A stretch of 64,000 bases of DNA from Lampris incognitus (lineage: Eukaryota; Chordata; Actinopteri; Lampriformes; Lampridae): positions 27,501 through 91,500 of the forward strand of contig NC_079213.1 in assembly GCF_029633865.1 (NCBI RefSeq). Reading direction: 5' to 3'. Both the position numbers and the translations under genes were made by a program. Numbering within the stretch: position 1 is the first letter of the stretch; each line of letters begins with the position of its first letter. Of the stretch, positions 1 to 36,834 are shown one piece after another. A model generated the notes under the pieces. It made no database searches and had not been told where the DNA came from. It saw nothing but the letters and a program-made list of their open reading frames with translations.

Positions 1-1
1 A

Positions 2-259
2 CTTTATAGACAGGCCAAAATCACCTTCCCAAATGCAGACATTTACTTCCCCATTATAAATTACTCCTCACGGCTCCCGCCAACCCACCGGGACAATTTG
101 AAAATCATTAACAACACCATAGCCACACACCTCCCCTTCCTGGCAGAAATCCCACATGACACCTTCACCACGGAAAAAGATAACCTCCACTGGACAGCGT
201 CCACAGCCCGCAATATCTTCCAACATTGGTGCAAACAATTAAATTTAACGTCGGCCTGA
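2..259 (+). CDS. Neptune-like PLE ORF1, C-terminal end (partial at window edge)
   Basis: The frame starting at base 2 is open for 85 codons and ends at TGA 257-259; the window cuts off its 5' part. The visible protein carries the block FPIINYSSRLPP and later KDNLHWTASTARNIFQHWC. The same blocks, decayed, recur about 15.2-15.4 kb in a second Penelope relic, just downstream of a GDSN motif. From memory, Neptune-type Penelope elements carry such an upstream ORF with a GDSN/SGNH-like start; its role is unknown. It overlaps the RT ORF by 34 bases in a different frame. The family call is by motif recognition and the function is not known. Confidence 0.7.
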   Translation, partial: LYRQAKITFPNADIYFPIINYSSRLPPTHRDNLKIINNTIATHLPFLAEIPHDTFTTEKDNLHWTASTARNIFQHWCKQLNLTSA

Positions 260-2916
260 AGCCTAACCGGGCACGGGACGAGCACACCCCAGAACCACGA
301 CCGGACACACACCGCAATCGGGACCTGGTCTGGAATTCAGAATCACAAATCTGTAATCTGGCAACATTGTTCACTCCCACCACACCACAACGCCATCTCC
401 TGGAGAGGGGGCTCACCTTCATCCCACGCCCCACCAACTTTGACTGGGAGCAACTTCAAAGGGACCTACACAATTACCACAGACGATTAAAACTCAAAAA
501 TTATTTCCATCCCGACTCCCAACAACAACGACAACACAAACAATTCAGCCACCCGTCCACCTGGGAACCGGACAACACCACCCTAGACCCGGAAACACAA
601 CACCTCATCCTCCAAGATAGACTGACTCTACGCCGCTATCGTCCCCCGGCGGATGTCCCAGACAACCTACCGGGGGCCGAACGCGCAGCGCTCAAACAAC
701 TAATCCATCACCCCAACATCATTATCAAACCGGCAGACAAAGGCAGCAAAATTGTAATCATGGACAGACAACAATACTCACTGGAGGCGAACAGACAGCT
801 AAACAACACCACCTACTATAGACCCCTGGACGATACAATACAACCCCAGACCCAAATTCAAATCCGGACCATTATTCAATCGCTACATAACAAAAAATAC
901 ATTTCGGCCAAACAAAAACACTATCTATTCGGACCACAGAACCCACGACCCCGCTATTTTTATCTCCTACCAAAAATCCACAAAGAGCCACAAACTTGGA
1001 CCGTTCCCTTTGAGGTTCCTCCCGGCCGCCCTATAGTCTCGGACTGCAATAGCGCCACCTACCACATTAGCCAATACATCGACCACTTCTTGGGCCCTCT
1101 CTCCACCCGACACCCCAGCTACATTAAAGACACATACCACTTCCTGGAAATCATCCGCTCCATGGCCGTCCCCGCCAACGCGTATTTATTCACAATTGAC
1201 GTTGATAGCCTGTATACCAATATTAACACACAACTGGGTTTACAAGTCATCTCATCCGTTTTTTCTCGCAACCCGGACGACACACGACCGGATGCGGAAA
1301 TCCTTCAACTCCTAGAGTTGTGCCTGAAAAACAACGACTTCCTATTCAATAATCAATATTATCTCCAGGTGACCGGGACGGCCATGGGCCAGAGATTCGC
1401 ACCATCCTATGCCAACCTCTACATGAGTGAATGGGAGCGAGAGGCCTTGGACAAATGCCCCCTAAAACCCACCCTCTACCTTCGGTTTTTAGACGACATT
1501 TTCGGAATCTGGCCACACGACCTGGCACAATTCTCAGACTTTATCCACATTCTCAATAATCATCACCCCTCCATCAAAATCAAACACACCATAGAATCGG
1601 AACAAATCAACTTCCTGGACACCACAGTCTATTTCAGGCCACTCAACTCCACACAGAAAACACTCCAGACCAAAGTTTATTTCAAACCAACGGACACACA
1701 CTCACTATTACACAAATATAGTTACCATCCAAGACACACGTTCAAAGGCATAGTCAAATCACAACTCATCCGTTTCCATCGCATTTGCTCAGACATCTCA
1801 GATTTCCACTCAGCCACCCACATTCTGTTCAAAAGCCTCCGTAAACGAGGCTACTCCAAACGCTTCCTCCGCACCATTAAAAGCAACACCTTGGCTCCTC
1901 CCGTTCCCATTCGCTCATCACCCCCCCATCGGCCCCAGCCCCCGCCAACCCAGGTTCCCAGATCCGAGCTGCCTCCACCCTCTTCCCCCTACCTGAACCA
2001 AGGCCGGGATCCTCTAAACCCCAGCCCTGACACCCCCTCCCACCCTTATCCTGATCTTAACCACCCCCAACCCCATCCTTATCCTAACCATAACCCTAAC
2101 CATAACCCCAACCCTAACCATAACCCTAACCATAACCCCAACCCTAACCATAACCCCAACCCTAATCCTAACCCTAAACTTAACCATGACCCTACCCCCG
2201 GTCCTTATCCTGAACCTAACTCTTCCCCCTTCCCCAATGAAGGCCTGCATCCCAACCCCCCTGTAGCGAGAGGCAGCTCGGGCCCACAACACACCGCCAC
2301 AATTAGTTCACACCTCAACCCTACCCCGCCGCGGCACTTCATACCTCTCATCTCCACCTTTTCACACAAAATAACCGGTCTCCACCATGCCATAAAGAAC
2401 AGTTTCTCCAGTCTACAGTCCCAGCACCCGGCTTTCCACAACAATAAAATCATATCCGCTTACAGAAAAAACAAGAGCCTCCACAACATACTGGTCAAAT
2501 CCCAATTCTCCGATCACAGACCCACACCCCAATTACAATATGCACACCACTACAGAAACAGAAAATACATCCACAACCCACACACCAACACAGCTATGCC
2601 CACCTTGGGCTCATTCTCCGTCAACACCACAAACGTCGTTTACATCATCACATGCACCCTCTGCGACAAACACTACATTGGGGAAACCCGACACTCGATA
2701 CATACACGACTCTCACAACACATACACAACATCATGGTAGGCAAACTTCGTACCCCCCTAATCACACACTTCCAAACGCACCCCTCCTCCCACCTCATCA
2801 TCTCTGGCCTTGAAAACAACGATCACTGGACCGTGGGGCAGAGGAAGAGAGCGGAAAAACAGTGGATCCACAAGCTCCGGACGACCGCACCGGGAGGCCT
2901 CAATGATGACGTTTAA
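226..2916 (+). CDS. Penelope-like element ORF2: reverse transcriptase + GIY-YIG endonuclease
   Basis: An 896-codon open frame. RT blocks in order: RPIVSD (residues 268-273), motif A with D325 in TIDVDSLYTNI, motif B GTAMGQRFAPSYANLYM (384-400), motif C FLDD (D423, D424), motif D/E-like INFLDTTVYF, then a thumb-like stretch to about 560. A proline/asparagine-rich linker (about 565-740) follows, then a GIY-YIG nuclease: VVYIITC...C813...HYIGET (Y817-G819), R828, E877 and N893 as probable catalytic residues. This order is diagnostic of endonuclease-bearing PLEs, which copy RNA into DNA at a nicked target. The frame opens on TTG, and the first in-frame ATG is at 760, inside the RT region. Translation therefore probably enters from ORF1 by frameshifting. 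The copy looks young: no internal stop. Alternatively it is the downstream part of a once-fused polyprotein. Confidence 0.95.
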   Translation: MVQTIKFNVGLKPNRARDEHTPEPRPDTHRNRDLVWNSESQICNLATLFTPTTPQRHLLERGLTFIPRPTNFDWEQLQRDLHNYHRRLKLKNYFHPDSQQQRQHKQFSHPSTWEPDNTTLDPETQHLILQDRLTLRRYRPPADVPDNLPGAERAALKQLIHHPNIIIKPADKGSKIVIMDRQQYSLEANRQLNNTTYYRPLDDTIQPQTQIQIRTIIQSLHNKKYISAKQKHYLFGPQNPRPRYFYLLPKIHKEPQTWTVPFEVPPGRPIVSDCNSATYHISQYIDHFLGPLSTRHPSYIKDTYHFLEIIRSMAVPANAYLFTIDVDSLYTNINTQLGLQVISSVFSRNPDDTRPDAEILQLLELCLKNNDFLFNNQYYLQVTGTAMGQRFAPSYANLYMSEWEREALDKCPLKPTLYLRFLDDIFGIWPHDLAQFSDFIHILNNHHPSIKIKHTIESEQINFLDTTVYFRPLNSTQKTLQTKVYFKPTDTHSLLHKYSYHPRHTFKGIVKSQLIRFHRICSDISDFHSATHILFKSLRKRGYSKRFLRTIKSNTLAPPVPIRSSPPHRPQPPPTQVPRSELPPPSSPYLNQGRDPLNPSPDTPSHPYPDLNHPQPHPYPNHNPNHNPNPNHNPNHNPNPNHNPNPNPNPKLNHDPTPGPYPEPNSSPFPNEGLHPNPPVARGSSGPQHTATISSHLNPTPPRHFIPLISTFSHKITGLHHAIKNSFSSLQSQHPAFHNNKIISAYRKNKSLHNILVKSQFSDHRPTPQLQYAHHYRNRKYIHNPHTNTAMPTLGSFSVNTTNVVYIITCTLCDKHYIGETRHSIHTRLSQHIHNIMVGKLRTPLITHFQTHPSSHLIISGLENNDHWTVGQRKRAEKQWIHKLRTTAPGGLNDDV
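241..247 (+). promoter_or_regulatory. Candidate -1 ribosomal frameshift slippery heptamer
   Basis: AAATTTA lies in the ORF1/ORF2 overlap (226-259) and reads A AAT TTA in the ORF1 frame, matching the X XXY YYZ rule exactly. A -1 slip there enters the RT frame, which has no early ATG. The same heptamer serves as a slip site in Rous sarcoma virus. I did not establish a downstream stimulatory RNA structure. Confidence 0.5.
2086..2190 (+). repeat. Telomere-like hexamer tract inside the ORF2 linker
   Basis: A run of CCTAAC, CATAAC and CCCAAC hexamers, degenerate versions of CCCTAA, read in frame as Asn-Pro/Asn-His dipeptides (about residues 620-655 of ORF2). Hexamers keep the reading frame, so the tract can grow or shrink without breaking the protein. 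It is also the left edge of the 900-bp duplication. Confidence 0.9.
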
Positions 2917-3030
2917 TTACGCCGGCCCCTGTTTGCTCATGTCCATGCATCCGCCAACAACCATCTTTATCCATTGGGGGGACTAGTTCAGACACCGTAG
3001 GCCAGTGCAAATAAAGTCAATTACCGACAC
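2917..3030 (+). other. PLE 3' UTR with AATAAA
   Basis: A short 3' tail follows the ORF2 stop. AATAAA sits at 3010-3015, just after GGCCAGTGCA. The tail then runs straight into telomere-like CCCCAACCCTAACC. GGCCAGTGCA recurs in most of the truncated PLE ends downstream and so marks the element's 3' end. Confidence 0.7.
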
Positions 3031-3495
3031 CCCAAACCCCAACCCTAACCCAACCCTAACCACGACCCTAACCCTAAACTTAACCATGACCCTACCCCCG
3101 GTCCTTATCCTGAACCTAACTCTTCCCCCTTCCCCAATGAAGGCCTGCATCCCAACCCCCCTGTAGCGAGAGGCAGCTCGGGCCCACAACACACCGCCAC
3201 AATTAGTTCACACCTCAACCCTACCCCGCCGCGGCACTTCATACCTCTCATCTCCACCTTTTCACACAAAATAACCGGTCTCCACCATGCCATAAAGAAC
3301 AGTTTCTCCAGTCTACAGTCCCAGCACCCGGCTTTCCACAACAATAAAATCATATCCGCTTACAGAAAAAACAAGAGCCTCCACAACATACTGGTCAAAT
3401 CACAATTCTCCGATCACAGACCCACACCCCAATTACAATATGCACACCACTACAGAAACAGAAAATACATCCACAACCCACACACCAACACAGCT

Positions 3496-3816
3496 ATGCC
3501 CACCTTGGGCTCATTCTCCGTCAACACCACAAACGTCGTTTACATCATCACATGCACCCTCTGCGACAAACACTACATTGGGGAAACCCGACACTCGATA
3601 CATACACGACTCTCACAACACATACACAACATCATGGTAGGCAAACTTCGTACCCCCCTAATCACACACTTCCAAACGCACCCCTCCTCCCACCTCATCA
3701 TCTCTGGCCTTGAAAACAACGATCACTGGACCGTGGGGCAGAGGAAGAGAGCGGAAAAACAGTGGATCCACAAGCTCCGGACGACCGCACCGGGAGGCCT
3801 CAATGATGACGTTTAA
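3496..3816 (+). CDS. Endonuclease-only GIY-YIG ORF in the second copy
   Basis: The duplicate retains the whole GIY-YIG domain without the RT. The frame is open from 3049, just after a stop in the telomere-like joint. The first ATG, at 3496, starts 15 codons before VYIITC, so a 106-residue protein would hold the nuclease core with the Tyr, Arg, Glu and Asn positions kept. There is no visible promoter of its own. It is most likely a by-product of the duplication, though it could be translated if an upstream transcript reads through. Confidence 0.55.
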   Translation: MPTLGSFSVNTTNVVYIITCTLCDKHYIGETRHSIHTRLSQHIHNIMVGKLRTPLITHFQTHPSSHLIISGLENNDHWTVGQRKRAEKQWIHKLRTTAPGGLNDDV

Positions 3817-3929
3817 TTACGCCGGCCCCTGTTTGCTCATGTCCATGCATCCGCCAACAACCATCTTTATCCATTGGGGGGACTAGTTCAGACACCGTAG
3901 GCCAGTGCAAATAAAGTCAATTACCGACA

Positions 3930-4042
3930 CCCCAAACCCCAACCCTAACCCAACCCTAACCCTAACCCCCTAACCCTAACCCTAACCCCCCCTAACCCTA
4001 ACCCCCCTAACCCTAACCCCCTAACCCTAACCCAACCCTAAC
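3930..4042 (+). repeat. Interstitial telomeric tract (CCCTAA)n
   Basis: About 110 bp of CCCTAA mixed with CCCCCTAA and CCCAACCCTAA variants, directly at the 3' end of the second PLE copy. The C-rich strand is the + strand, so a chromosome end built of this tract would lie to the left. Confidence 0.95.
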
Positions 4043-4175
4043 TGGTCTCGCAGTCTTCTCCGACCACGGCTTGGCCATGTTACCCCCTCAGACCTTTAGG
4101 CCAGTGCACCTGAGTATCAATAATAACCCAAAGCCCGAACTCGTACCCAAACCTAACCCTAACCCCCTAACCCAC
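4043..4175 (+). mobile_element. 5'-truncated PLE 3' end, layer 1, with telomeric cap
   Basis: About 100 bp of PLE 3' sequence (CTCAGACCTTTAGGCCAGTG, then GAGTATCAATAATAACCC) ends in CCTAACCCTAACCCCCTAACCC at 4149-4173. It shares GGCCAGTGCA with the 3' UTR of the full element. Confidence 0.75.
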
Positions 4176-4278
4176 GGCTTGCCCATGTTACCCCCTCAGA
4201 CCTTTAGGCCAGCGCACCTGAGTATCAATGATAACCCTAAGCCCGAACCTAACCCTAACCCCTAACCCTAACCCTTTT
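4176..4278 (+). mobile_element. 5'-truncated PLE 3' end, layer 2, with telomeric cap
   Basis: A second copy of the same tail, starting at GGCTTGCCCATGTTACCCCC and differing from layer 1 by a few bases (CCAGCGCACC here). It closes in CCTAACCCTAACCCCTAACCC at 4249-4272. Confidence 0.75.
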
Positions 4279-4954
4279 TGCCCATGTTCACTGTCCAGCT
4301 GTCCACATTCGCCCATACTCACCATCCGGCATTAGATCCCCCCCCTTTTTTATTTGTATTTTTCCTCTTTCAGTTTCTTCCAGTTTAGGATAAAAAACAC
4401 ATTGTTTCCCCCCCCCCTCCTCTTTCCTTTGGCGTCCCTCGCTGCTGCGGATATTGGCAGGGGGGGACGCCACGATTTGCGGAGGAAGTGCCTGCCTACC
4501 GGAAGTGGTGTCCATTTTATAGTTTGAGCCGGAGCTCCGATCGCTCTTTTCGACGGGGTCCGGCCGATAACTATGTCACCCGCTGTTCATTGAGTTGGAC
4601 TAATGTTGGCTATTCTTTTGACGGACCATTATATTATTTTTTGATTTTTACCCCCACTCACGAAAAGGTCTAGCCCACGCCTGAAGAAGGTAAGAAGATA
4701 CCGAAACTTCGCGACATTGGGCTACATTATAGACAGCCCCCCCTGCCCATGGACGATCTAATTCGACCGGTCTTAAGGTCTAGCCCGACCTGCCCTGCTC
4801 ATATTCACTGCCCAGCCCCTGATGTCTAACCCGGCCAATCTCACGGTCTACTCCGACCACGGCTTGCCCATACTACCCGCTCAGACCTTTAGGCTAGTGC
4901 ACTGGAGTATCAATGATAACCCAAAGCCTAAACCCGAACCTAACCCCTAACCCT
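4279..4954 (+). mobile_element. PLE fragment, layer 3: 5' terminal (pLTR-like) region joined to a 3' end
   Basis: Bases 4279-4760 are unlike the coding element. They contain two C-runs, a hammerhead-like fold (4671-4724) and no coding sequence, as expected of the long terminal region of a PLE. From about 4790 the sequence becomes the usual 3' tail (TGATGTCTAACCCGGCCAAT, then CTTTAGGCTAGTGCACTGGA) ending in AACCTAACCCCTAACCC at 4937-4953. A permuted arrangement of terminal region beside 3' end is known for PLEs; here it is an inference. Confidence 0.6.
4671..4724 (+). ncRNA. Hammerhead-ribozyme-like fold of a PLE
   Basis: Stem I TAGCCCA (4671-4677) pairs perfectly with TGGGCTA (4718-4724). 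Between them lie CTGAAGA (4681-4687, matching CUGANGA), stem II GGTA/TACC (4689-4692 with 4699-4702, loop AGAAGA) and GAAA (4703-4706). This is the order of a type I hammerhead, which PLEs are known to carry. Weak points: an extra A at 4688 before stem II, a very short stem III, and GAC where the usual cleavage triplet is NUH. It may be inactive. Confidence 0.6.
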
Positions 4955-5082
4955 GATGTCTAACCCGACCAATCTCACGGTCTACTCCAACCACGGCTTG
5001 CCCATACTACCCCCTCAGACCTTTAGGCCAGTGCACCTGAGTATCAATGATAACCCAAAGCCCAAACCCGAACCCTAACCCA
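4955..5082 (+). mobile_element. 5'-truncated PLE 3' end, layer 4, with telomeric cap
   Basis: Starts at TGATGTCTAACCCGACCAAT, nearly the same as the tail of layer 3, runs through GACCTTTAGGCCAGTGCACC and ends in CCCAAACCCGAACCCTAACCC (split over 5062-5082). The tail grades from AACCCAAAGCCC into true CCCTAACCC. Confidence 0.75.
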
Positions 5083-5500
5083 GAAAAAGCAAGAGCCTTC
5101 AACCATTACTCACTAGATCCCAATTCGCTGACCATAGACCCACACCCCAACTACACTATGGCCACCACTACAAAAACAGAAAATTCAACCAGAATTCACA
5201 TCTTTCCCCACACTAGGCTCTTTTTCCATCACCGCCACCACCAACACTCCGTCACAAACATGACATAGGAGAAACCAAGCACTCCATTCACACTAGCTTA
5301 TCACAACACCTCTACAATATCAGGCAAGGTCGACTCAACACCACCCGGGTCAAACATTTCCAACTTCACCCCCCCACTCACCTCACAGTTTCCGGTCTAG
5401 AAAACAACGACTGCTGGGCCGTTGAGCAGAGAAAGTGAGCGGAGAGAATTTGGATCCACAGGCTTGGGACCACCGTACCAGGAGATCTTGATGATTGAAA
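5083..5500 (+). pseudogene. Decayed PLE GIY-YIG endonuclease fragment (layer 5)
   Basis: Starts abruptly at CAGAAAAAGCAAGAGCC, matching the position of RKNKSLHN in the full ORF2, and follows it to the end of the nuclease: homologues of the HYIGET, QHLYNIR and GLENNDCWAVEQR regions are seen. It is broken by several small changes and is much more diverged than the 2-4 kb copies, so it is an older insertion. It abuts the telomere-like tail of layer 4 on its left. Confidence 0.8.
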
Positions 5501-6170
5501 GATGGCCGACCCACTCCTAGTGTGGTTGTCCCTGGATCTACAATCTGGCTGCACTGATCCCCCTTTCTTAAAGATCTCAGTCTTGTCACGAGATGACAAC
5601 CCCATATTTATTTATTCATCGATTTACCCTTTTAATTCATTGTTATTTATTGTGTTTTATTTATGAAATTTTAGGCAATTTTATTAGACTGGTTTGAGAT
5701 AACTTATTTTTCGGTTTTTTATTAGAGCACTTAATCGCATGGCTTTGAGTTATTCTTTATTATTATTCCTATTTATTATTGTTATGTTTTACTATGCTAG
5801 TGAGTCTTCTAATAGCACTTTTATTTTTAGCACTTATAATTTAACACTTAGCAGTTACTCCTCCTCCAGCTTCTAGATTTTACCTCAGTATTTAACTTAC
5901 AAACTCAACTTAACCCGGGGGACCTTCTCGTCCAGGGATCCGTGTAGCCTCCCCTTTTAACCTAACTCTATTAGACCACTCCTTCCTCTGCTCTTGTACT
6001 CTGTCTGGGAATTTAACCTTCGTCCCTGGCAGGAGGGACCGCAGCCTTCTCCATCACACCATCCCTCAGATCAGGAGGCCAGTGCTACATAAATATAATG
6101 TATAACCCACAACCCCAACCCTTACCCAAAACCCGACCCTAACCCCAACCCCTAAACCTGCCCAATCCCT
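5501..6170 (+). mobile_element. Long AT-rich 3' tail of the layer-5 PLE, with telomere-like end
   Basis: After the nuclease remnant come about 550 bp of AT-rich non-coding DNA. Then come GATCAGGAGGCCAGTGCTAC (the usual 3' end mark) and AACCCACAACCCCAACCCTT with further CCCTAA variants to about 6170. The much longer 3' tail suggests a different PLE subfamily from the 226-2916 element. Confidence 0.55.
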
Positions 6171-8680: not shown

Positions 8681-8699
8681 ATTTGTTCTGAGGAATCTT

Positions 8700-9240
8700 C
8701 ACTGGGATCGAAAAGACAACACTAATTCATCCCAGGAAGAAATTGAAGCTCTTAAGCAACTTCAAAACAACAAACACATTGTTATTAAACCCGCAGATAA
8801 AGGTAGTGGGGCGGTTATTTTGGATAGGGAATAATATGTGTCGCAGACAGAATTCAGTAACACCAGACATTACACCAAACTTAGTAGCCCCATTTTCCCA
8901 TACACCATACCAGTAGTACACTAAATATTGGAGGTTTGTTTAATACTAAAAAGAACATATACATACATACATACATACATATATATATTTGAAGGGTAGT
9001 GACAATCCCCACCCTAAAAGATTTTATTTATTACCAAGATCCAAAATCCTGGAGTACACCCTATGAAATTCCTCCCGGTTACACAATTGTTTGACAGCAA
9101 CAGTGATACTTAACAGCAGAATTTACTGAATGTTAACTTAACCCCATTTCTAACAAACATCCTAGCTACATCCAAGATACATAAGATTTCTTGGACAAAA
9201 TGAAAAATCTTTCAATCCCGACATGCAACCTGCTTTTCAA
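8700..9240 (+). pseudogene. PLE reverse transcriptase relic (different lineage)
   Basis: Broken frames read EIEALKQLQNNKHIVIKPAD, then GSGAVILDRE, STPYEIPPGYTIV, LNPISNKHPSYIQDT and FLDKMKNLSIPTCNLLF. They match ORF2 of the 226-2916 element at LKQLIHHPNIIIKPADKGS, VPFEVPPGRPIVSD and RHPSYIKDTYHFLEIIRSM. The copy ends just before motif A. A (TACA)n microsatellite expansion lies inside it. Divergence is high, so it is old. Confidence 0.85.
8950..8990. repeat. (TACA)n/(TA)n microsatellite
   Basis: ATACATACATACATACAT passing into TATATATA; it has expanded inside the PLE relic. Confidence 0.9.
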
Positions 9241-20493: not shown

Positions 20494-20870
20494 GTACTTT
20501 TCTGCAATTTCATGTTTTTAGGGTTAGGACTAAGGTTTAGATTTGGATAAAATTGACGAATTCTTGCATTTTTTTCCCTTTTTACCACTCAGAACATGCT
20601 CCTTCCCTTGATGCTCCCATAAAAGGAACACTGAACGGTCACCAAAAGCACAGAGCTTGTGATTAAACCACTTCTCTGTACCTGCTTCGCACTCAGGAAG
20701 AAGCACCCCAGCTCATCATTGTGGGTGGCGGGACTCACACTTTAGAAAAACATTTCTCAATATGAAAACTAAAGAAATTATCCCCGAAATTAGGATGAGG
20801 TGTAGATAAACTTAACGGGTGGCTCTATATCTTTCAGTTAGCGTTGGGATAAGGGTTCTATCTGCTCTGG
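20448..20870 (+). repeat. Array spacer S1, with 32-base T run
   Basis: A T32 run (20458-20489), then GTTTTTAGGGTTAGGACTAA, ACCACTCAGAACATGCTCCT, GCTCCCATAAAAGG and CAGGAAGAAGCACCCCAGCT. The same order of blocks recurs as a spacer throughout the array. The first block holds telomere-like TTAGGGTTAGG. Confidence 0.9.
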
Positions 20871-23800
20871 CAGACAATCCTACAGAGCCACAGCAATACA
20901 GACTAACTCGTCGCGATAGCCAAGCTATCCATGGCAATGGCATTTCTAAAGCAAAGAACCGAGCTTTTCAGAGTAAAAGTTTTGCATAAAATTAACAGAC
21001 AGCGCTTTCTACATGTTTCACTTGAGGTAGGTTTGGGTTAGGGATTATCTGCTCAGTCAGACAATCCCACAAAAAAAATACAACAGAATAACTCTTGACA
21101 GTAGCCAAGCTATCCATGACAAAGTCATTTCTGAGGGAAAGTACTGACCTTTTCTGAGTGAAACATTTGGATAAAATTAAAAGATGGCTCACAGTCATGT
21201 TTTTTCTTCTTTTGTTTGTTTTTTCCTCTTTGTTTTCTTCTTTCATTATTTCAGGATGTCTCTCCTATCTTTTATTTATTTTCGGTCTGGTTGTGCTTGT
21301 TTCGTTCGTATTCTGATTTAATGTCCATGTTATTTCAAACTGAAATACTTGTTTATATGTTTTATTATTGTGAAAAAAAACTATTAATCATAAAAAAGAA
21401 AAAAAAGATGGCTCTTTCTACATCTTTCGGTTAGGGATGAGTTAGGCTAAGAGTTTTATCTGCTCAGGCAGACAATACCTCAGCAACATCGACTAACTCT
21501 TCACAGTTGCCAAACTAACCATGGCAAAGACATTTCTGATGGAAAGTACAGAGCTTCATGGAGTGATAGTTTTGGATAAAATTAACAGATGGCTCTTTCT
21601 ACACGTTTCGGTTGGGTTAGGGTAAGTGTTTTATCGGTTCAGGCAGACCATCCCACAGAGAATACCACAGCAACAGAGATCAACTCTTTGCGAAAGCCAA
21701 ACCAACCACAACAATGGCATTTCTGACAGAAAGTACTGAGCTTCACGGAGTGAAATGAGAATAAAATTAACGGATGGCTCTTTCGACATGTTTTGCTTAG
21801 GGTAGGGGTTTATCAGCTCAGGCAGACAATCGCACAGAACACCACAGAGACCAACTAAGCAGTAGCCAGGCTATGCACAGCAATGTCATTTCTGATGAAA
21901 AGTGCCAAGCTTCTAGGAGTGATAGTTTCTGATAACATTAACGTATGCTTTCTCTACGCATTTCAGTTTGGTTAGGGTGAGGGTTTTACTTACTCAGGCA
22001 GAAAATCCCACAGAGAATACCACAGCAAAAGAGACTAACTCTTCATGGTAGCAAAGCTAACTACGGCAATGGCATTTCTGACGGAAGGTACCGAGCTTCT
22101 CAGAGTGATAGTTTCGGATAAAATTAACATATGCTCTTTGTACATGTTTGGGTTGGGGTAGGGTACGGGTTTTACCTGTTCAGGCAGAAAATCCTACAGA
22201 GAATACCACTGCAAGAGAGAATACCTTCGCATACATAAGCCAACCATGGCAGTGGCATTTCAGAGGAAAAGTACAGCGCTTCTCGGAGTAAAACTTTTGG
22301 ATAAAATTAAGGGTTGGCTCTTTCTACATCTTTTGGTTAGGTTTGGGATAGCGTTACGGTAAGGGTTTTATCAGCTCAGGCAAATCGATCCCACAGAAAA
22401 TACCACAGGAACAGACACCAACTCTTCGTGGTAGCCAAGCTAACCACGGCAATGGCATTTCTGATGAAAAGTACCAAGCTTCTCGGAGTGATAGTTTCAG
22501 TTAAAATTAACGGACAACTCTTTCTACAGGTTTCACTTAAGAGTAATGGGTTTTATCTGCTCAGGCCAAAAATCCTACAGAGAATACCACCGCAACAGAG
22601 AATAACTTCGCTAGACAAGCTAACCACGTAAATGGCATTTCAGATGGAAAGTACCGAGCTTCTCGGAGGAACAGTTTCAGATAAAATTAACGGACGGCTT
22701 TTTCTACATGTTTGTCTTAGTTGTAAGGGTTTTATCTGCTCTAGCAGACGATCCTACAAAGAACAATACAGCAATAGAGACAAACTCTTCGCAGTAGCCA
22801 AGCTAACCACGGCAATTGCATTTCTGAAGGAAAGAACCAGCTTTTCAAAGTAAAAGGTTTGCGTAAAATTAACGGACAGCGCTTTCTACATGTTTCGCTT
22901 GAGGTAGGGTTTGGGCTCATCTATTCAGTCATACCTTCTCACAACAAAATACCACAACAACAGAGAACAACTCTTAGCAGTAGCCAGGCTATCTATGGCA
23001 AAGTCATTTCTGAAAGAAAGAACCAAGCTTCTTAGAGTGAAAGTTTTGGATAAAATTAATGGAGGACTCTTTCTACATCTTTCGGTTAGGGATGAGTTAG
23101 GCTAAGATTTTTGTCTGCTCGGGCAAACAATCCAACACACAATACCACAGCAACAGAGAATAATTCTTCGCAGTAGCATTTCTGAACATGGAACGATAGT
23201 TTCAGATAAAACTAATGGATTGCTCTTTCTACATGTTTCGGTTGGGATAGGGTAAGGGTTTTACCTGCTCAGGCAGACAATCTCACAGCTACAGAGGCTA
23301 ACTCTTCGCAGTAGCAAAGCTCACCATGGCCATGACATTTCTGATGGAAAGTACCAAGCTTCTCGGAGTGACAGTTTTTCGATCTTATTAATGTATGCAC
23401 TTTCTACAATGTTTCGGTTTGGTTGACGCAAGGGATTTACCTGCTCAGGCAAACAATCCCACAGCAACAGAGAATTACTTCATCGTAGACAAGCTAACCA
23501 CAGCAATGGCACTGCTCTTCTCAAGTACCAAGCTTCTGAGTGATACTTTCGGGGCAAAAAATTGACAGAGGCCGTTTCTACATGTTTCACTTAGGGTAAG
23601 GGTTTTATCAGCTCAGGCACACAATCGCACAGAGACAACCACAGCAACAGAGACTAACTCTTCGCAGTAGCCAAGCTCATTACGGCAATGGCATTTCTGA
23701 TGAAAAGTACCAAGCTTCTCGGAGTGAAAGTTTTGGATAACATTAATGGACGGCACTGTCTACATGTTTCACTTATGGTAAGGGTTTCATCTGTTCAGTC

Positions 23801-25590
23801 GGACAATCCCGCAAAAATACAACAGCAACAGAGAGACTCTTCATGGTAGCCAAGCTAACTACGGCAATGGCATTCCTGATGGAATGTACCAAGCTTCTCG
23901 GAGTTAAAGTTTTGGAAAAAATTGCTGGACAGCTCTTTCTACATATTTCGCTTAGTGTAAGGGTTTTATCAGGCAGACAATCGCACAGAAAATACCACAG
24001 CAACAGAGACCAACTATTCGTAGTAGCCAAGCTAACTACGGCAATGGCATTCCTGATGGGAAGTATAAAGTTTCTTGCAGTGAAAGTTTTGGATAAAATT
24101 AATGGACAGCTATTCTACATATTTCACTTATAGTAAGGGTTTTATCTGTTCAGTCAGACAATCCCGCAGAAATACAATAGCAACAGAGACTAACTCTTCG
24201 TGGTAGCCAAGCAAACCAGGGCAATGTCATTACTGAGGGTAAGTACCAAGATTCTCGGAGTGAAAGTTTTGGATAAAATTAATGGACGGCTCTTTCTACA
24301 TGTTTCGCTTAGATCTAAGGGTTTTATCGGCTCAGACAGACAATCGCACAGAGAATACCACAGCAACAGAGACTAACTCTTCGCAGTAGCCAAGCTAACT
24401 ACGGCAACGGCATTTCTAATGGAAAGTACCAAGCTTCTCGGAGTGCAAGTTTTGGATGAAATTACTGGACAGCCATTTCTACATATTTCGCTTAGTGTAA
24501 GGATTTTATCAGCTCAGGCAGACAATCACACAGAACATCACAGCAACAGAGTCTAACTCTTCGTAGTAGCCAAGCTAACTACGGCAATGGTATTACTGAT
24601 TGAAAGTACGAAGCTTCTCAGAGTGAAAGTTTTGGATAAAATTAATGGACGGCTCTTTGTACATGTTTCACTTAGCGTTTTATCAGCTCAGGCAGTCAAT
24701 CGCACAGAGAACACCACAGCAACAAAGACTAACTCTTCATTGTAGCCAAGCCAACTACGAAAATGGAATTTCTGATGGAAAGTACCAAGCTACTCGTAAA
24801 AGTTTTGGATAAAATCGCTGGACGGCTTTTGCTATATATTTAGCTTAGTTGTAAGGGCATTATCTGCTCATGCAGACAAATCGCACAGAGAATACCACAG
24901 CAACAGAGACTAACTCTTCGCAGTAGCGAAGCTAACAACTGCAATGGCATTTCTGAAGGAAAGAACTGAGCTTCTCGGACTGAAAATGTTGGATGAAATT
25001 AACGGAGTGCTTTCTAAATGTTTCACTTAGAGTAAGGGGTTTATCTGTTTAGGCGGACAATCCCTCAGAAATACAACAGCGACAGAGACTAACTCTTCGT
25101 GGTAGCCAAGGTAACCACGGCAATGGCATTTTTGAAGGAAAAACCGAGCATCTTGGAGTGAAAGTTTTGGACAAAATTAACAGATGGCTCTTCTTACATG
25201 TTTTGGTTGGGTTAGGGTAAGTGTGTTACCTGTTTAAGCAGATAATCGCACAGAGAATACCATAGCAACAGAGACTAACTTCATTGTAGCCAAACTAACC
25301 ACGCTAATGGCATTTATGATGGAAAGTAGAGGTACTCGTAGTCAACATTTTGAATAAAATTACCGAACGGCTCTTTCAACATATTTCACTTAGTATAAGG
25401 GTTTTATCAGCTCAGGCAGTCAATCGCACAGAGAATATCACAGCAATAGAGACTAACTCTTCGCAGTAGCCAAGCTAACCACGCCAATTGCATTCCTGAA
25501 GGAAAGAACCAAGCTTCTCGTAGTAAACCTTTTGGATAAAAATCAACGGATGGTCCTTGCTACATGTTTTGGTTGACGTAGTGTTTGAGT
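20871..25590 (+). repeat. Diverged monomer block 1 (direct, about 27 monomers)
   Basis: Head-to-tail monomers of roughly 150-185 bp. A typical monomer reads AACTCTTCGCAGTAGCCAAG, CTAACCACGGCAATGGCATT, TCTGATGGAAAGTACCAAGC, TTCTCGGAGTGAAAGTTTTG, GATAAAATTAATGGACGGCT, CTTTCTACATGTTTCGCTTA, GGGTAAGGGTTTTATCTGCT, CAGGCAGACAATCCCACAGA. Monomers differ from one another at many sites and by small deletions. A non-satellite insertion (about 21190-21405, T- and A-rich) interrupts one of them. Confidence 0.93.
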
Positions 25591-26095
25591 TTAGGGTCAA
25601 GTTTTTCTGCTCAGGCGGACAGTGCCCAACCGCTGGCTTAGCGATACCCCAATATGAGAGTTATGGAGAGCTTGATGGGTTCAATTTGGATGTTTTTTTC
25701 TTCTTTACAACTGATCTGCCACTGTCCTGTATCTTGATTAGTTTATCCCGTGTTAAACTTGAAAAATTGCTGGTGAGGTTTGGAGCAATATAAGAGATTT
25801 TTTTTTTAGTTGAAGTTCACTGCTATTGCAGTTTAATGTTTTTAGGGTTAGGTTTAAAATAAAAGTAATTGATGGCTTTCTCAATTTTTTTCTTTTACCA
25901 CTCAGAGCACGCTCTCTGCCTCAAAAAGGACAGAGCTTGTAATCAAATCACTTCTCTGTACCTGCTTCATGCTCAGGAAGAAGCACCGTAGCTCATCATC
26001 GTGGGTGGTGGACTCACACTTAAACATTTTTCAAACCAAGAACGACAGAAATGACCGCTGAAAGTGTAGTCTTCTGAATCTTTTGGATAAAATTA
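25591..26095 (+). repeat. Array spacer S2
   Basis: Shares CCCGTGTTAAACTTGAAAAA, TTTTTAGGGTTAGGTTTAAA, ACCACTCAGAGCACGCTC and GGAAGAAGCACCGTAGCTCA with the other spacers. The closest relative by eye is the one at 36.0-36.6 kb. Confidence 0.88.
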
Positions 26096-26202
26096 ATGGC
26101 CGTCTCTTCCTACATCTTTTGGCCAGGGTTGGCGTAGGGTTACAGTGAGGGTTTTTCCTACTCAAAAGTAGTTCCACAAACAATACCACAGCAACAGACA
26201 GT

Positions 26203-26355
26203 CTGCCTGAGCAGATAAAACTCCTACACTAAACCTATCCCAACCCTTACAGAAAGATGTAGAAAGAGCCATCCGTTAATTATATCCAAACCGTAAGCTC
26301 CGTGACATTATTTTCCGTCAAATACCATTGCCGTGGTTAGCTTGACTTCTGCTAA
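26203..26355 (-). repeat. Inverted monomer
   Basis: GTCTGCCTGAGCAGATAAAA...ACCATTGCCGTGGTTAGCTT is the reverse complement of a monomer set among direct ones. It is joined through TGCTAAGAATTAATCCCACA to the next direct monomer. Confidence 0.9.
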
Positions 26356-26639
26356 GAATTAATCCCACAAAGAATACCATAGCAACAGAGACTGTCTTGG
26401 CAGTTGCCAAGCTAACCATTGCAATGGCATTTCTGATGGAAAGTACAGAGCTTCTCGGTGTGAAAGGTTTGGATAAAAATCAACATACGGCTCTTTCAAC
26501 ACGTAAGGGTAGGGTTTGTGTTAAGGTAAAGGTTTTACCTGCTCGGGCAGAAAATCCCACAGCAACAGATTTTAACTCTTCATGTTAGCCACGCCAACCA
26601 TGGCAATGGCATTTTTGATGGGAGATACTAGGCTTCTCC

Positions 26640-27235
26640 GAGTGAAAGGTAAGGGTTAGAATTGAATGCCAGAGCCAACACATGTCAACCAGGCGCCTCA
26701 ACAATGCCCAAATACTGGCTTACAGATACCCCCAGGTTTAGGGTTACGAATTTGGAGAGAGTTTGATGGATTGGGTATGGGATCTATTTGGAGGTTGTTT
26801 ATTCTTTACACTTGATCCCCCATTGTCTTCCCTCTTGTTTATCCCGTTTTAAACTTGAAAAGTTGTTGGTGGGGTTTGCAGCAATACAAGTGGGTTTCTT
26901 TTATTGAATTGCACTTCTACAATCGTCATGTTTTTAGGGTTTGGACTAAGTTTTAGGGGTAGGTTTAAATAAAATTGATGAATTTCTACATTTTTGCCCC
27001 TCCTTTTTACCACACCGAACAGGCTCCTTCCTCTTGATAACTCCATAAAAGCAACACTGAACGGTCACGAAAAGCACAGAGTGAGTGATTAAACCACTTC
27101 TCTGTACCTGCTTCGCGGTCAGGGAGAAGCACCCCAGGCTCATCATGGTGAGTGGCGGGACTCGCACTTTAGAAAAACATTTCTCAAGATAAAAACTAAA
27201 GAAATTATCTCTGAAATTAGTATTAGGCTTTGATA
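26640..27235 (+). repeat. Array spacer S3 (long form)
   Basis: About 600 bp: GAATGCCAGAGCCAACACAT at the left, AAACTTGAAAAGTTGTTGGT in the middle, TCCATAAAAGCAACACTGAA and TTTAGAAAAACATTTCTCAA at the right. Repeated almost unchanged at 37285-37875. Confidence 0.9.
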
Positions 27236-29061
27236 AACTCAATGGATGGCTCTATATCTTTCGGTTACGGTTGGGGTAAGAGTTTTATCTGCTCTGGCAG
27301 ACAATACCACAGCAATAGAGACCAACTCGTCGCAGTAGCCAAGCTAACCACGGCAATGGTATTTCTGATGGAAAGTAGAGAGCTTCTCAGAGTAAAAGCT
27401 TTGCATAAAATTAACGGACAGCGCTTTCTACATATTTCGCTTGAGGTAGGATTTGGGTTAGGGTAAGGGTTTTATCTGCTTAGCCACACAATCGCAAAGA
27501 AAACACTACAGTAACAGAGACAAACTCTTCACAGTAGCCAAACTAACCACAGCAAAGTCATTTCTGATGTTAAGTACCGAGCTTCTCGGAGTGATAGTTC
27601 CGGATGAAATTAACAAACGACTCTTTCTACATGTTTCACGTAAGAGTAAGGGTTTTATCTGCTCAGCCAGATAATCCCAAAAAATACCACAGCAACACAC
27701 AGTCTTGGTGGTAGCCAATGGCATTTCTGATGGAGAGTAGCAAGCTTCTCACAGCGATAGCTTTGGCTAAAATAAACGGATGGCTCTTTCTACATGTTTC
27801 AGTTGGTTTAGTGTAAGTGTTTTACCTGCTCAGGCAGACAATCCCACACAAAATAGCACAGCAACAGAGACTAACACTTCACGGTAGCCAAGCTAAACAC
27901 AGCAAGGAAAATTCAGAAATTAAGTACCAACTTATTCGTACTCGAAATTTTAGATCAAACTAACTGACTTTCTTCATGTTTTGGTTGAGGGTTTTATCAG
28001 CTCAGGAAAACTATCACAGCAACAGAGACTAACCCTTCGCAGTAGCAAAGCTCGCCACGGCAATGGCATTTCTGATGGAAAGTACCCAGCTTCTCGGAGT
28101 GACAGTTTTGGATCTTACTGACGTAAGCTCTTTCTACAACGTTTCGTTTTAGTTAGCATAAGTGTTTTACCTCCTCAGGCAGACAATCCCACAGCAACAG
28201 AGACTAACTTCATCGTAACCAAGCTAAATACAGCAATGGCACTGCTCTTCTCAAGTACCGACTTTCTGAGTGACAGTTTCGGAAAAAAATTTCACGGAGG
28301 CTGTTTCTACATGTTTCACTTAGCGTAAGGGTTTTATCAGCTCAGGCAGACAATCGCACAGAGAATACCACAGCAACAGAGACCAACTCTTCGTAGTAGC
28401 CAAGCTAACTACAGCAAATGGCATTACTGATGGAAATTACCAAGCTTCTCGGAGTGAAAGTTTTGGATAACATTAATGGACGGCTCTTTCTAAATGTTTC
28501 ATTTATAGTAAGGATTTTATCTGTTCAGGCGGACAATCCTGCAGATATTACAATAGCAACAAAGACCAACTCTTCGTGGTAGCCAAGCTAACCATGGCAA
28601 TGGCATTTCTGATGGAAAGTACCAAACCTCTCAGAGTATACGTTTTAGATAAAATTAATGGACGGCTCTTTCTACATTTTTCGCTTAGTTGTAAGGGTTT
28701 TATCAGCCAAACAATCACACAGAGAATACCAGAGCAACAAAGTCAAACTCTTCATTGTAGCCATGGAGTAATAGTTTTGGATGAAATTAATGGACGACTC
28801 CGTCTACATATTTCGCTTAATTGTAAGGGTTTTATCAGCTCAGGCAGTCAATTGCACAGAACATACCACAGCAACAGAGAAAAACTCTTTGTAGTAGCCA
28901 AGCTAACTACGGCAATGGCATTCCTGATGGAAAGTACCAAGCTTCTCGGAGTGAAAGTTTTGGTTAACATTAATGGACGCGTCTTTCTACATGTTTCACT
29001 TATGGTAAGGGTTTTATCTGTTCAGGCGGACAATCTCGCAGAAATACAACAGCAACAGAGA
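27236..29061 (+). repeat. Diverged monomer block 2 (direct)
   Basis: About 11 direct monomers. The block from 25.4 to about 28.4 kb is paired with 35.8-39.1 kb at offsets of 10.36-10.68 kb. Confidence 0.9.
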
Positions 29062-29222
29062 CTGCCTGCCTAAGCAGATAAAACTCTTATACTAAACCTA
29101 TCCCAACCCTTACAAAAACATGTAGAAAGAGCCAGCCGCCAATTATATCCGAACCACAAGCTCCGAAACACTCTATCTTCCACCAGAAATACCATTGCCG
29201 TGGTTAGCTTGGCTCCTGCTAA
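29062..29222 (-). repeat. Inverted monomer
   Basis: The same inverted junction as at 26.2 kb, ending GGTTAGCTTGGCTCCTGCTA. The nearest copy is at 33108-33264. Confidence 0.9.
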
Positions 29223-29524
29223 GAATTAATCCCACAAATAATACCATAGCAACAGAGACTGTCTTGGCGGTTGCCAAACTAATCACTGCAGTGGCATTTC
29301 TGATGCGAAGTAAAGAGCTTCTCGGAATGCAAAATTTGGATAAAATTAACAGACGGCTCTTTCAACACGTTTGGGTTGGGGTTTGTATTAGGGTAGAGGT
29401 TCTACCTGCTCAGGCAGCAAATCCCACAGAAAACCCCACAGCAAGAGACCAACTCTTCGCGGTAGCCAAGCTAACCACGGCTCCGGCATTTCACACTGAA
29501 CATACTAGGTTAGCTTTATGGTTA

Positions 29525-30115
29525 GGGTTGAATGCCAGAGCCAACACATGTCAACTGAGCACCTCCGCCAATGCCCAAGTGCTGGATTAGAAATACCCCC
29601 AGGATTCGGGTTAGGGATATGGATAGAGTTTGATTGGTTAAGTCTGGGGGCAATTTGGGTGTTTATTCATTACAACTGATCTCCCAGTCTTATATCTTGA
29701 TTACTTTATCCCGTTTTAAACTTGAAAAGTTGTTGGTGGGGTTTGGAACAATACAAGTGTTTGTCGTTTGTTTGTTTTGTTTTTTTTTTCAAATTGAACT
29801 TTTCTGCAATTACAATTTAATGTTTTAAGAGTTAAGAGTAAGGTTTAGGGTTAGATCAAATTGATGAATTTCTGCACTTTTTTCCTTTTTACCACTCAGA
29901 ACATGCCCCTTCTCTTGATGCTCCCATAAAAGGAACATTGAACGTCATCTAAAGCACAGAGCTTGTGATTAAACAACTTCTCTGTACCCGCTTAGCGCTC
30001 AGGAAGAAGCACCCCAGCTCATCATGGTGGGTGGCGGGACTCGCACTTTAGAAAAACATTTCTCAAGATAAAAACTAAAGAAATTATCCCCGAACTTCGT
30101 ATTAGATTTTGATAA
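29525..30115 (+). repeat. Array spacer S4 (long form)
   Basis: Begins GGTTGAATGCCAGAGCCAAC and ends AATTATCCCCGAACTTCGTA. Paired with 33545-34110, about 4.0 kb downstream. Confidence 0.9.
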
Positions 30116-33107
30116 ACTCAATGGATGGCTCCATATCTTTCGGTTACGGTTGGGGTAAGAGTTTTATCTGCTCAGCCACACAATCCCAAAGAAAATACCA
30201 CACCAACAGAGACAAACTCTTCATAGTAGCCAAACTAACCACAGCAAAGTCATGTCTGATGGAAAGTACCGAGCTTCTCGGAGTGATAGTTCCGGATGAA
30301 ATTAACAGACGACTCTTTCTACATGTTTCACGTAAGAGTAAGGGTTTTATCTGCTCAGCCAGATAATCCCAAAGAAATACCACGGCAACAGACAGTCTTG
30401 CTGGTAGCCAAGTCAACCATGGCAATGGCATTTCTGATGGAGAGTAGCAAGCTTCTCGCAGCAATAGTTTTGGGTAAAATAAACGGATGGCTCTTTCTAC
30501 ATGTTTCGCTTAGCGTTTTATCAGCTCAGGCAGTCAATCACACAGAGAACACCACAGCAACAGAGACTAACTCTTCGTAGTAGCCAAGCTAACTACGGCA
30601 ATGGCATTCCTGATGGAACGTACCAAGTTTCTTGCAGTGAAAGTTTTGGATACAATTAATGAAAGGCTATTCTACATATTTCACTTATAGTAAGGGTTTT
30701 ATCTATTCAGTCGGACAATCCCGCAGAAACACAATAGAAACCGAGACTAACTCTTCATGGTAGCGAAGCAAACCAAGGCAATGTCATTACTGAGGGAAGG
30801 TACCAAGATTCTCGGAGTGAAAGTTTTGGATAAAATTACTGGACAGTTCTTTCCACATATTTCGCTTAGTGTAAGGGTTATATCAGCTTAGGCAGACAAT
30901 TACACAGAGAACACCACAGCAACAGAGACTAACTCTTCGTAGTTGCCAAGCTCAACACAGCAATGGCATTACTGATGGAAAGTACCAAGCTTCTCAGAGT
31001 CTAAGTTTTGGATAAAATTAATGGACGGCTCTTTCTACATGTTTCGCTTAGCGTAAGGGTTTCATCAGCTCAGGCAGTCAATCGCACAGAGAATACCATA
31101 GCAACAGACACCAACTCTTCGCAGTAGCCAAGCTAACCATGGGAATGGCATTTCAGATGGAAAGTACCAAGCTTCTCGGAGTGAAAGTTTTGGATAACAT
31201 TAATGGACAGCTCATTGTACATGTTTCGCTTAGCATTAGTGTTTTATCAGCTCAGGCAGTCAATCGCACAGAGAACACCACAGCAACAGAGACTAAATCT
31301 TCGTAGTAGCCAAGCTTACTACGGAAATGGCATTCCTGATGGGAAGCACCAAGCTTCTCGAAGTGAAAGTTTTGGATAACATTATTGGACGGCTCTTTCT
31401 TCATGTTTCACTTATGGTAAGGGTTTTATCTGTTCAGTCGGACAATCGCGCAGAAATACAACAGCAACAGAGACTAACTCTTTGTGGTAGCCAAGCAAAC
31501 CAGGACAATGGCATTACTGAAGAAAAGTACCAAGATTCTCGGAGTGAAAGCTTTGGATAAAATTACTGGACAGCTCTTTCTACATGTGTCGCATAGTATA
31601 AGGGTTTTTATCAGCTCAGGCAGACAATCGCACAGAGAACACCACAGCAACAGAGACTAACTCTTCGTAGTAGCCAAGCTAACTACAGCTATGGCATTCC
31701 TGATGGAAAGTACCAAGCTTCTCGGAGTGAACGTTTTGTATAACATTAATGGACGGCTCTTTCTACATGTTTCACTTACGGTAAGGGTTTTATCTGTTCA
31801 GGCGGACAAACCCACAGAAATACAACAACAACAGAGACTAACTCTCTTCGTGGTAGCCAAGCTAACCACAGCAATGGCATTTCTGATGGAAAGTACCAAG
31901 CTTTTTGGAGGGAAAGATTTGGGTAAAATTAATGCCCGGCGTTTTTACATATTTCGCTTAGTGTAAGCGTTTTATCCATTTAGGCGGACAATCCCTCAGA
32001 AATACAACAGCAACAGAGACCAACTCTTCGTGGTAGCCAAGCTAACCACGGCAATGGAATTTCTGAAGCAAAGAACCGAGCTTCTTGGACTGAATGTTTT
32101 GCATAAAATTAACGGACGGCTCTTCCTACATGTTTTGGTTGGGTTAGGGCAAGTATGTTACCTGTGTAAGCAGACAATCGCAGAAATACAACAGCAACAG
32201 AGACTAACTCTTCATTGTAGCCAAGCTAACTACGAAAATGGAATTTCTGATGGAAAGTACCAAGCTACTCGTAGTAAAAGTTTTGGATAAAATTACTGGA
32301 CGGCTTTTTCTATATATTTCGCTTAGTTGTAAGGGCATTATCTGCTCAGGCAGACAATCGCACAGAGGATACCACAGCAACAGAGACCAACTCTTCGCAG
32401 TAGCGAAGCTAACCACCGCAATGGCATTTCTGAAGGAAAGAACCGACCTTCGACTGAACATTTTGGATGAAATAAACGGAGTGCTTTCTATATGTTTCGC
32501 TTAGAGTAATGGGTTTATCTGTTTAGGCGGACAATCCCTCAGAAATAGAACAGCGACAGAGACTTAACTCTTCGTGGTAGCCAAGGTAACCATGGCAATG
32601 GCATTTTTGAAGGAAAAACCGAGCATCTTGGAGTGAAAGTTTTGGACAAAATTAACGGATGGCTCTTACATGTTTTGGTTGGGTTAGGGCAAGTGTGTTA
32701 CCTGTTTAAGCAGATAATCGCACAGAGAATACCATAGCAACAGAGACTAACTCTTCATTGTAGCCAAGCTAACCACAGCAATGGCATTTATGATGGAAAT
32801 TAGAGGTACTCGTAGTAAAAATTTTGAATAAAATTACTGAACGGCTCTCTCAACATATTTCAGTTAGTATAAGGGTTTTATCAGCTCAGGCAGTCAATCA
32901 CACAGAGAACACCACAGCAACAGAGACTAACTCTTTGTCGTACCCAAGCTAACGACGGCAATGGCATTCCTGATGGAAAGTACCAAGCTTCTCGGAGTGA
33001 CAGTTTTGGATAACATTAATGGACGGCTCTTTCTAAATGTTTCACTTATGGTAAGGGTTTTATCTGTTCAGGCAGACAATCCCGCAGAAATACAACAGCA
33101 ATAGAGA
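30116..33107 (+). repeat. Diverged monomer block 3 (direct, about 17 monomers)
   Basis: Direct monomers, several with GTTCAGTCGGACAATCCCGC or TTTAGGCGGACAATCCCTCA variants. Bases 30600-33103 are the partner of the distal duplicate at 61497-64000. Confidence 0.92.
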
Positions 33108-36640: not shown

Positions 36641-36834
36641 GTTAGGATTAGGTTGGCATAATTTGATGGAAATGGCATTTCTGATGGAAAGTACCGAGCT
36701 TCTCGAAATGAAAGTTTTGGATAAAATTAATGGAGGTCTCTTTCTACATCTTTTGGCCAGGGTTGGCGTAGGGTTACAATGAGGGTTTTTCCTACTCAAA
36801 AGTAGTTCCACAGAGAATACCACAGCAGCAGACA

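Follow-up and report, generated by a model that had tools for sequence, protein, structure and literature searches.

The DNA studied here is a window of 64,000 nucleotides from the fish Lampris incognitus (C3:27501-91500, NC_079213.1), which starts 27.5 kb from one end of a chromosome of 118,132,594 bp and carries, about 31-34 kb from that left end, a train of 3' ends of a Penelope-like element (PLE). Setting this train beside a search of the whole genome (1.48 Gb, 537 contigs), we propose, with a probability of roughly 0.7, that a PLE bearing a GIY-YIG endonuclease targets telomeric repeats and that its arrays have been further amplified by recombination.

Copies at chromosome ends and their telomere-like tails

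The 26-nt 3' end of the element matches the genome 130 + 278 = 408 times (at most one mismatch) and the reversed-pattern control 0 times. Positions and orientations were scored on the first 100 listed of these matches, and likewise of the 244, 241, 110 and 292 matches of the other searches reported below; a position was called terminal when no more than 130 kb separated it from a chromosome end, and the baseline was the share of sequence by length so close to an end (0.3%), together with an interior minisatellite family. Ninety-three of the 100 listed 3' ends are terminal, spread over 17 chromosome ends, and all 93 point inward, with strand agreement at each of the 17. Unit starts (at most one mismatch) gave 81 + 163 = 244 matches, of which the 100 listed comprise 65 on chromosomes (60 terminal, 60/60 inward) and 35 that come from only four small contigs and without exception have the strand expected from their nearer end. 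The 3' end of an older subfamily has 17 matches: eight terminal with the expected orientation, eight on small contigs and one at 237 kb of C2. Young copies are present at at least 23 of the 42 chromosome ends among the listed matches, a tally over the several listings that took in 55 chromosomal rows of the tail-plus-hexamer listing, with its small-contig rows left out and some stretches reading N. An earlier reading of the window from its letters alone (the sequence-only reading) had turned the 3' end of the PLE away from the chromosome end and suggested terminal copies, and the listed matches agree with it in both respects. The other seven listed 3' ends lie on C2 (three at 246-261 kb, one at 7.98 Mb, one at 45.16 Mb) and C5 (two at 55.86 Mb), and the five non-terminal listed unit starts at 252 kb, 261 kb and 45.16 Mb of C2, 54.16 Mb of C16 and 30.6 Mb of C22.

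What follows the tail was read at the first 30 of 40 scored matches, each showing 100% identity along the query. Of these loci, 26 have 40 or more of the 43 nt of the tail stretch in common. The next unit comes immediately after 11 of the tails and telomere-like DNA after the other 19; among these 19, four lead without a break into the telomere-like linker of a copy truncated at its 5' end, and two enter degenerate interior repeats. Passage from the tail straight into DNA neither telomere-like nor belonging to the next unit was seen at 0 of the 30 loci read; the sequence-only reading had named non-telomeric DNA after most copies as the observation that would tell against it. Across the genome, another CCCTAA-like hexamer comes after the tail in 30 + 80 = 110 cases (at most one mismatch over the pattern), and the length of telomeric DNA past the tail varies between zero and about 1.07 kb (170 perfect hexamers). 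The telomere-like tract is of two parts: the first ~34 nt are the element's own, and the remainder is telomeric DNA of variable length. The suspicion that the tract belongs to the 3' untranslated region (UTR) holds for the former and fails for the latter, whose perfect stretches are long and variable. The junction of tail and unit start matches 82 + 159 = 241 times at up to two mismatches, against 244 unit starts at up to one, so that the two counts rest on different limits. Because the junction is near-invariant, unit position 1 does not mark a free 5' end, and the tail lies inside a pseudo-long terminal repeat (pseudo-LTR) of head-to-tail units.

The 5' ends were surveyed after exclusion of matches below 90% or below 80 nt and of short linker matches. 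They were found at unit positions 577 (C6), 581 (C2, 7.98 Mb), 628, 1499, 2622, 3877, 4608, 5469, 5613 and 5649 and within the linker, and every one adjoins telomeric or telomere-like DNA. Positions 577 and 581 match the start predicted about 30 nt past a TATA box (unit 548). Nine different truncation points are joined to CCCTAA repeats, in line with the earlier description of the copies as mostly 5'-truncated, and these nine ends share 3, 3, 4, 3, 2, 1, 4, 1 and 1 nt of microhomology with the repeat, a mean of 2.4 nt versus 0.87 for random joins (p ~0.003; one junction, L028, was taken as 1 nt, read by eye, and the interior C2 junction was left out).

The chromosome termini themselves (42 termini, 1.2 kb each, plus seven small-contig starts) are of several kinds. 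Eight of the 42 are near-perfect (TTAGGG)n with 191-199 hexamers per 1.2 kb, seven stop within a young element (93-100%), three within a 70-74% relative, and five read N; the remaining 19 are other DNA, some ending in a tail-bearing 1.15-kb satellite. The right ends of C3, C6, C9, C10 and C12 reach near-perfect telomere and carry young copies 12-33 kb inside. On the right arm of C3, a copy is still at unit 3585 at position 118,116,000, and perfect telomere occupies 6 of 6 24-nt probes between 118,118,500 and 118,130,000, the contig end at 118,132,594 being telomeric. Two adjacent exon matches without stops to the telomerase RNA-binding domain lie at 21.80 Mb of C24; against PDB telomerase chains the exon scores 6e-29 (4o26), 8e-29 (4lmo) and 3e-14 (7qxa), which we take to be the medaka, pufferfish and human enzymes.

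Interior copies, element architecture and the window

Copies far from any chromosome end bear most directly on the mode of insertion. At 7.98 Mb of C2 a copy extends from unit 581 to the tail, with eight probes matching the unit in order, and is flanked on both sides by telomere-like minisatellite; insertion can therefore follow telomere-like sequence without a chromosome end. At 55.86 Mb of C5, two copies both start at unit 3877 inside another telomere-like minisatellite, which passes into non-telomere-like DNA, and the pair is read as one probable insertion, then duplicated. Judged by their flanks, the C2 and C5 loci show insertion into telomere-like duplex away from chromosome ends. The minisatellite motif has 118 + 174 = 292 genome matches on both strands. 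None of the 100 listed is closer than 130 kb to a chromosome end of known length; they include one on a small contig and the flank of the C2 copy. It forms a dispersed interior family (e.g., C2:7988383 and C16:45817601-45818054), and the minisatellite beside the C2 and C5 copies adjoins similar ACTTGTGGGG-type DNA, perhaps a larger repeat. Among the other interior loci, the one at 45.16 Mb of C2 is a tandem with a linker-truncated copy, and at C5 7.79, C9 7.82, C12 58.1 and C18 15.27 Mb the tails continue into CCCTAA-like DNA, a context that the search pattern itself selects.

At the left end of C3 the element forms 5,956-bp units, repeated head to tail and 100% identical, in the order promoter region, open reading frame (ORF) 1, reverse transcriptase (RT), linker and GIY-YIG, 3' UTR and telomere-like tail. 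ORF1 runs from a Met at unit 712 to a stop at 3162; ORF2 is open to unit 5813, with its first Met as late as 3663, and a short 3' UTR then leads into the tail GACACCCCAAACCCCAACCCTAACCCAACCCTAA of this unit. The nuclease reported by the sequence-only reading is indeed carried: PF01541 scores 25.3 bits against a cut-off of 22.6 at amino acids 818-900 of ORF2, C-terminal to the RT and in one frame with it. ORF1 and ORF2 overlap, the latter in the -1 frame, at a heptamer (A_AAT_TTA) whose phase is right for a -1 shift. Four copies with about 68% identity across this stretch retain the heptamer, with the ORF1 stop immediately after it; they resemble one another and probably represent a single lineage. 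We infer a candidate -1 frameshift from ORF1 to ORF2 at AAATTTA; the fold downstream of the heptamer is unremarkable (-26.1 vs -23.9 +/- 3.6 in shuffles). The overlap gives this PLE a gag-pol-like arrangement. Since the telomere hexamer makes two codons (Pro-Asn), gain or loss of repeats in the linker between RT and endonuclease stays in frame, and the length of this linker varies among copies.

A hammerhead-like core (CTGATGA-stem-GAAAC with complementary flanks) lies at unit 588-615, just past the predicted start, again within C5:1-10000 (L015) and, by eye, near window 4680-4713. Rfam returned no hammerhead match up to E 5, and the core is kept as a motif seen by eye only. Membership in Neptune was disfavoured, no Cys-rich domain having been seen and the ORF2 linker showing no Cys by eye, and no LINE-type (long interspersed nuclear element) endonuclease is among the Pfam matches of the element. 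C5:1-10000 and C1:1-7500 (L012) hold a ~1.15-kb tandem satellite made of a PLE 3' end, a telomere-like tail and promoter-like DNA, in which no long ORFs were seen and which is apparently pseudo-LTR only.

In the window, seven GGCCAGTGCA-type 3' ends (at most one mismatch) lie on the + strand, at 3000, 3900, 4099, 4207, 4892, 5026 and 6077, and all seven continue into CCCTAA-type DNA, much as had been described from the letters. The 10-mer by itself is a weak signal, because the whole window holds 10 matches against 3.4 expected and 2 of 100 shuffles reach 10; the minus strand has the remaining three, past 15 kb. CCCTAACCC has 36 matches against 0.44 expected, of which the 22 left of 6.2 kb are confined to the + strand and the 14 right of 20 kb, in the stretch of a ~180-bp satellite, to the minus strand. 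Four details of the sequence-only reading need correction: the train, which it began at 3930, starts earlier, as the window opens inside a copy and 2184-3048 recurs at 3084-3948 (1 mismatch in 865); the truncation placed at about 4790 is not shown, that stretch being a tandem duplication (Table 1); every young tail owes its first ~34 nt to the element; and the linker between RT and GIY-YIG, in which the 900-bp copy begins, is telomere-like too. Its layering, older towards the right, is sustained: tails 1 and 2 belong to the young subfamily, the next ones to the older subfamily and the last to a relic, and identity to the terminal unit drops from 99.7% (1-3059) to 68% (5081-5495; 53% in protein). 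The left part of the first copy lies outside the window and adjoins a genome stretch that reads N.

Table 1. Positions of PLE-derived and telomere-like features within the window.
Feature	Positions	Strand	Remark
Young PLE copy from unit position 2904 through the tail	1..3059	+	99.7% to C3 terminal unit
ORF1 3' end with stop	2..259	+	full ORF1 read at C3 left
A_AAT_TTA slippery heptamer ahead of ORF1 stop	241..247	+
ORF2 frame: RT, telomere-like linker, GIY-YIG	184..2916	+
Telomere-like coding linker (CCTAAC = Pro-Asn), RT to endonuclease	2083..2199	+
GIY-YIG endonuclease domain	2635..2883	+	PF01541 25.3 bits, cut-off 22.6
3' UTR containing GGCCAGTGCAAATAAAG	2917..3025	+
Element-encoded telomere-like tail, proposed RT start site	3026..3059	+
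900-bp copy, 5'-truncated in linker, own tail ~3926-3959	3060..3959	+	1 mismatch/865 to first copy
Telomeric (CCCTAA)n tract with variant units	3960..4042	+
Two short 5'-truncated older-subfamily tails, both ending in CCCTAA repeats	4043..4275	+
Stretch like the pseudo-LTR satellite at the left ends of C1 and C5 (by eye)	4276..4816	+
Older tail, 134-bp tandem duplication, two units	4817..5081	+
Old PLE relic, 5'-truncated, with a decayed GIY-YIG region, a long 3' UTR and a telomere-like tail	5081..6160	+

Further right, at about 21862-63998, the ~180-bp satellite forms a large block with a 362-bp higher order; its units contain TTAGGG-like motifs in the orientation opposite to that of the PLE tails. 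Seven U3 small nucleolar RNA-like matches (63-108 bits) occur on the minus strand at 20584-37866, inside the satellite region.

Proposed mechanism and competing explanations

The RNA would start about 30 nt past the TATA box, and the transcript may span several units. The endonuclease would nick the G-strand of a telomere-like duplex, or a free telomeric 3' end would be used; the CCCUAA-like tail within the RNA would pair with the TTAGGG primer, and copying would start there. A one-unit transcript would yield a start-to-tail copy and a multi-unit transcript a head-to-tail array, early stops would leave truncated copies joined via short microhomology, the ends would be re-capped by telomerase, and recombination among units, tails and linkers would homogenise and multiply the arrays. 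Priming of the tail on the G-strand would account for the fixed orientation, the invariant tail, the variable repeat length and the interior telomere-like targets. Use of the G-overhang of a chromosome end as well, with later regrowth of the telomere, would be compatible with these data. More tentative is the wider proposition of a telomerase-positive fish with hybrid telomeres, in which a PLE with a telomere-complementary internal RT start adds head-to-tail units at ends and at interior minisatellites, and retrotransposition and telomerase jointly lengthen the ends.

Several observations weigh against retrotransposition into telomeric repeats. An older, different PLE fossil (window 8690-8900), intended as a position control, has 25 genome matches, of which 21, the window included, are within 130 kb of an end and all inward; one other is on a small contig, one at 232 kb of C2 and two are interior (86% and 78%). 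As the 23 non-interior matches are 92-100% identical, the fossil sits in a subtelomeric block common to many ends, which at the level of aligned DNA proves exchange between them, and such exchange alone could give the shared orientation; we therefore counted the fossil for the explanation by recombination. Unit spacing is moreover constant within an end (5858 on C14, 5849 on C16), and C16:6015-86113 repeats a higher-order series of 5849, 5849, 8093 and 8095, which suggests that the array underwent segmental duplication. At C2 232-261 kb, the fossil block, a single old tail and three of the young copies are reversed for a left end; the copies at 237-261 kb run from old to young with rising coordinate, like an inverted terminal block, and an inverted or misoriented block would explain the reversal. 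At 54.16 Mb of C16, non-telomeric DNA stands 5' of a partial 3' UTR, and neither this locus nor C22 30.6 Mb has a tail at full-length distance, so insertion or rearrangement elsewhere occurs. Finally, RVT_1 in ORF2 reaches 19.7 bits (E 7e-4), below its cut-off of 29.6, and ORF1 has a weak GDSL/SGNH signal, also below cut-off (PF13472, E 0.0036).

These data invite an explanation resembling the spread of yeast Y' elements: a PLE turned subtelomeric repeat, with telomere-like DNA at its borders, would be multiplied as telomerase heals broken ends and break-induced replication between telomere-like tracts carries units from one end to another, with no present retrotransposition. The common block, the spacings and the linker-to-tail 900-bp duplications all suit it, and from the constant spacings, the higher-order pattern and the identical adjacent units, the alignments show that much of the copy number is DNA-level amplification. 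Start-site 5' ends and insertions in dispersed interior minisatellites are, however, unexpected under end-to-end exchange, and we consider this explanation unlikely. Retrotransposition is kept as the probable origin because of those 5' ends, the scattered truncation points and the interior insertions, with recombination as the amplifier of the arrays. Somewhat doubtful, but better placed, is attachment without the endonuclease, the model of the sequence-only reading and that proposed for Athena, in which the RNA tail lies on the G-overhang, the chromosome end primes and telomerase re-grows the repeats. The orientation, the repeat-capped truncations with microhomology and the C3 right copy, replaced by perfect telomere distal to unit 3585, speak for it; the insertions at C2 7.98 and C5 55.86 Mb nevertheless require no terminal G-overhang, and the endonuclease domain is kept in young copies. 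End attachment may operate alongside the nick-primed route.

Two further explanations are disfavoured. That an ordinary PLE carries a telomere-like microsatellite in its own 3' UTR and lies at the ends incidentally would agree with the ~34 element-encoded nucleotides of the tail and with interior copies preceded by other DNA (C16), but the terminal excess of the listed copies over the 0.3% expected and a telomeric stretch that varies from none to ~1 kb make it highly improbable. We give hardly any credence either to a pure assembly artefact, unplaced repeats having been piled at contig ends: the 7/42 termini that stop in a young element and the adjacent C3 units identical over 5,956 bp would fit, whereas young copies well inside five telomere-reaching right ends and a strand consistent at all 17 ends among the listed matches would not. 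Targeting of telomeric repeats by the GIY-YIG element thus remains our preferred reading.

Relation to known systems

Yeast Y' elements are subtelomeric units that stand beside internal telomeric tracts and are amplified by recombination. They are not known as retroelements, and they offer no counterpart to the interior start-to-tail insertions. TRAS and SART of the silkworm belong to the non-LTR (LINE) class and have a LINE-type endonuclease. They resemble the Lampris element in bearing an endonuclease, in their telomerase-type telomeric repeats and in a fixed orientation, and insertion within the repeats, which characterises them, is found here too; the Lampris element has a GIY-YIG domain in place of the LINE-type enzyme. 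HeT-A, TART and TAHRE of Drosophila, as excerpts of two papers present them, likewise form head-to-tail retroelement arrays at chromosome ends, but there the elements alone make up the telomere and telomerase is lost, whereas the Lampris genome has telomerase exons and TTAGGG ends (PMC10088271, PMC12477314). The first of these papers, from 2023, names TRAS and SART in its excerpted text and includes one vertebrate LINE among telomeric retrotransposons (PMC10088271), and the excerpt of a chaetognath expressed sequence tag paper reports no retrotransposon at telomeric transcripts (PMC2678813).

Among PLEs, the excerpted literature describes telomeric families without endonuclease in rotifers and other groups (PMC3846280, PMC12477314) and a fungal family, called a telomere-localised PLE, which shares the geometry (PMC4522978). 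For such endonuclease-deficient PLEs, the same excerpts state that C-rich repeats at the RNA 3' end aid attachment to G-rich overhangs, and the Athena elements and Terminons portrayed there are like the Lampris element in being PLEs at chromosome ends, with the 3' end away from the telomere and telomeric repeats at the junctions (PMC3846280, PMC12477314, PMC4522978). They differ, so far as these excerpts go, in lacking an endonuclease, whereas the Lampris element has a GIY-YIG domain and inserts in interior telomere-like DNA. In vitro, PAc (a Poseidon element from Anolis) initiates reverse transcription within its RNA, at a site that lacks homology to the DNA it cuts, and uses AT-rich targets; a multi-unit mRNA was proposed for it (PMC11167929). 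The two share GIY-YIG, tandem units and a pseudo-LTR, and the hammerhead-like core seen by eye and the putative RNA-internal RT start of the Lampris element would be further likenesses; PAc cuts AT-rich DNA and its start site is unlike its target, while the putative start of the Lampris element matches the target (PMC11167929). The PLEs at AciHV-3 integration sites in lake sturgeon are again GIY-YIG elements of a fish bounded by telomere-like repeats; the excerpt calls them degraded and their insertion random, and describes no genome-wide telomere targeting (PMC12031113).

No report of an endonuclease-bearing, telomere-targeting PLE was found among titles and abstract starts of the open full-text literature, outside which most subscription papers lie. 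In the portions of that literature at hand, telomeric PLEs are without endonuclease and endonuclease-bearing PLEs are said to insert widely at AT-rich sites. The Lampris element crosses this contrast, having kept its endonuclease and yet dwelling at telomeres. It suggests a simple path to site-specificity, in which the internal RT start becomes a copy of the target and the primer picks the place; and since the RTs of PLEs are related to telomerase, questions of cooperation between a retroelement and telomerase at chromosome ends would become directly testable with such an element in a telomerase-bearing animal.

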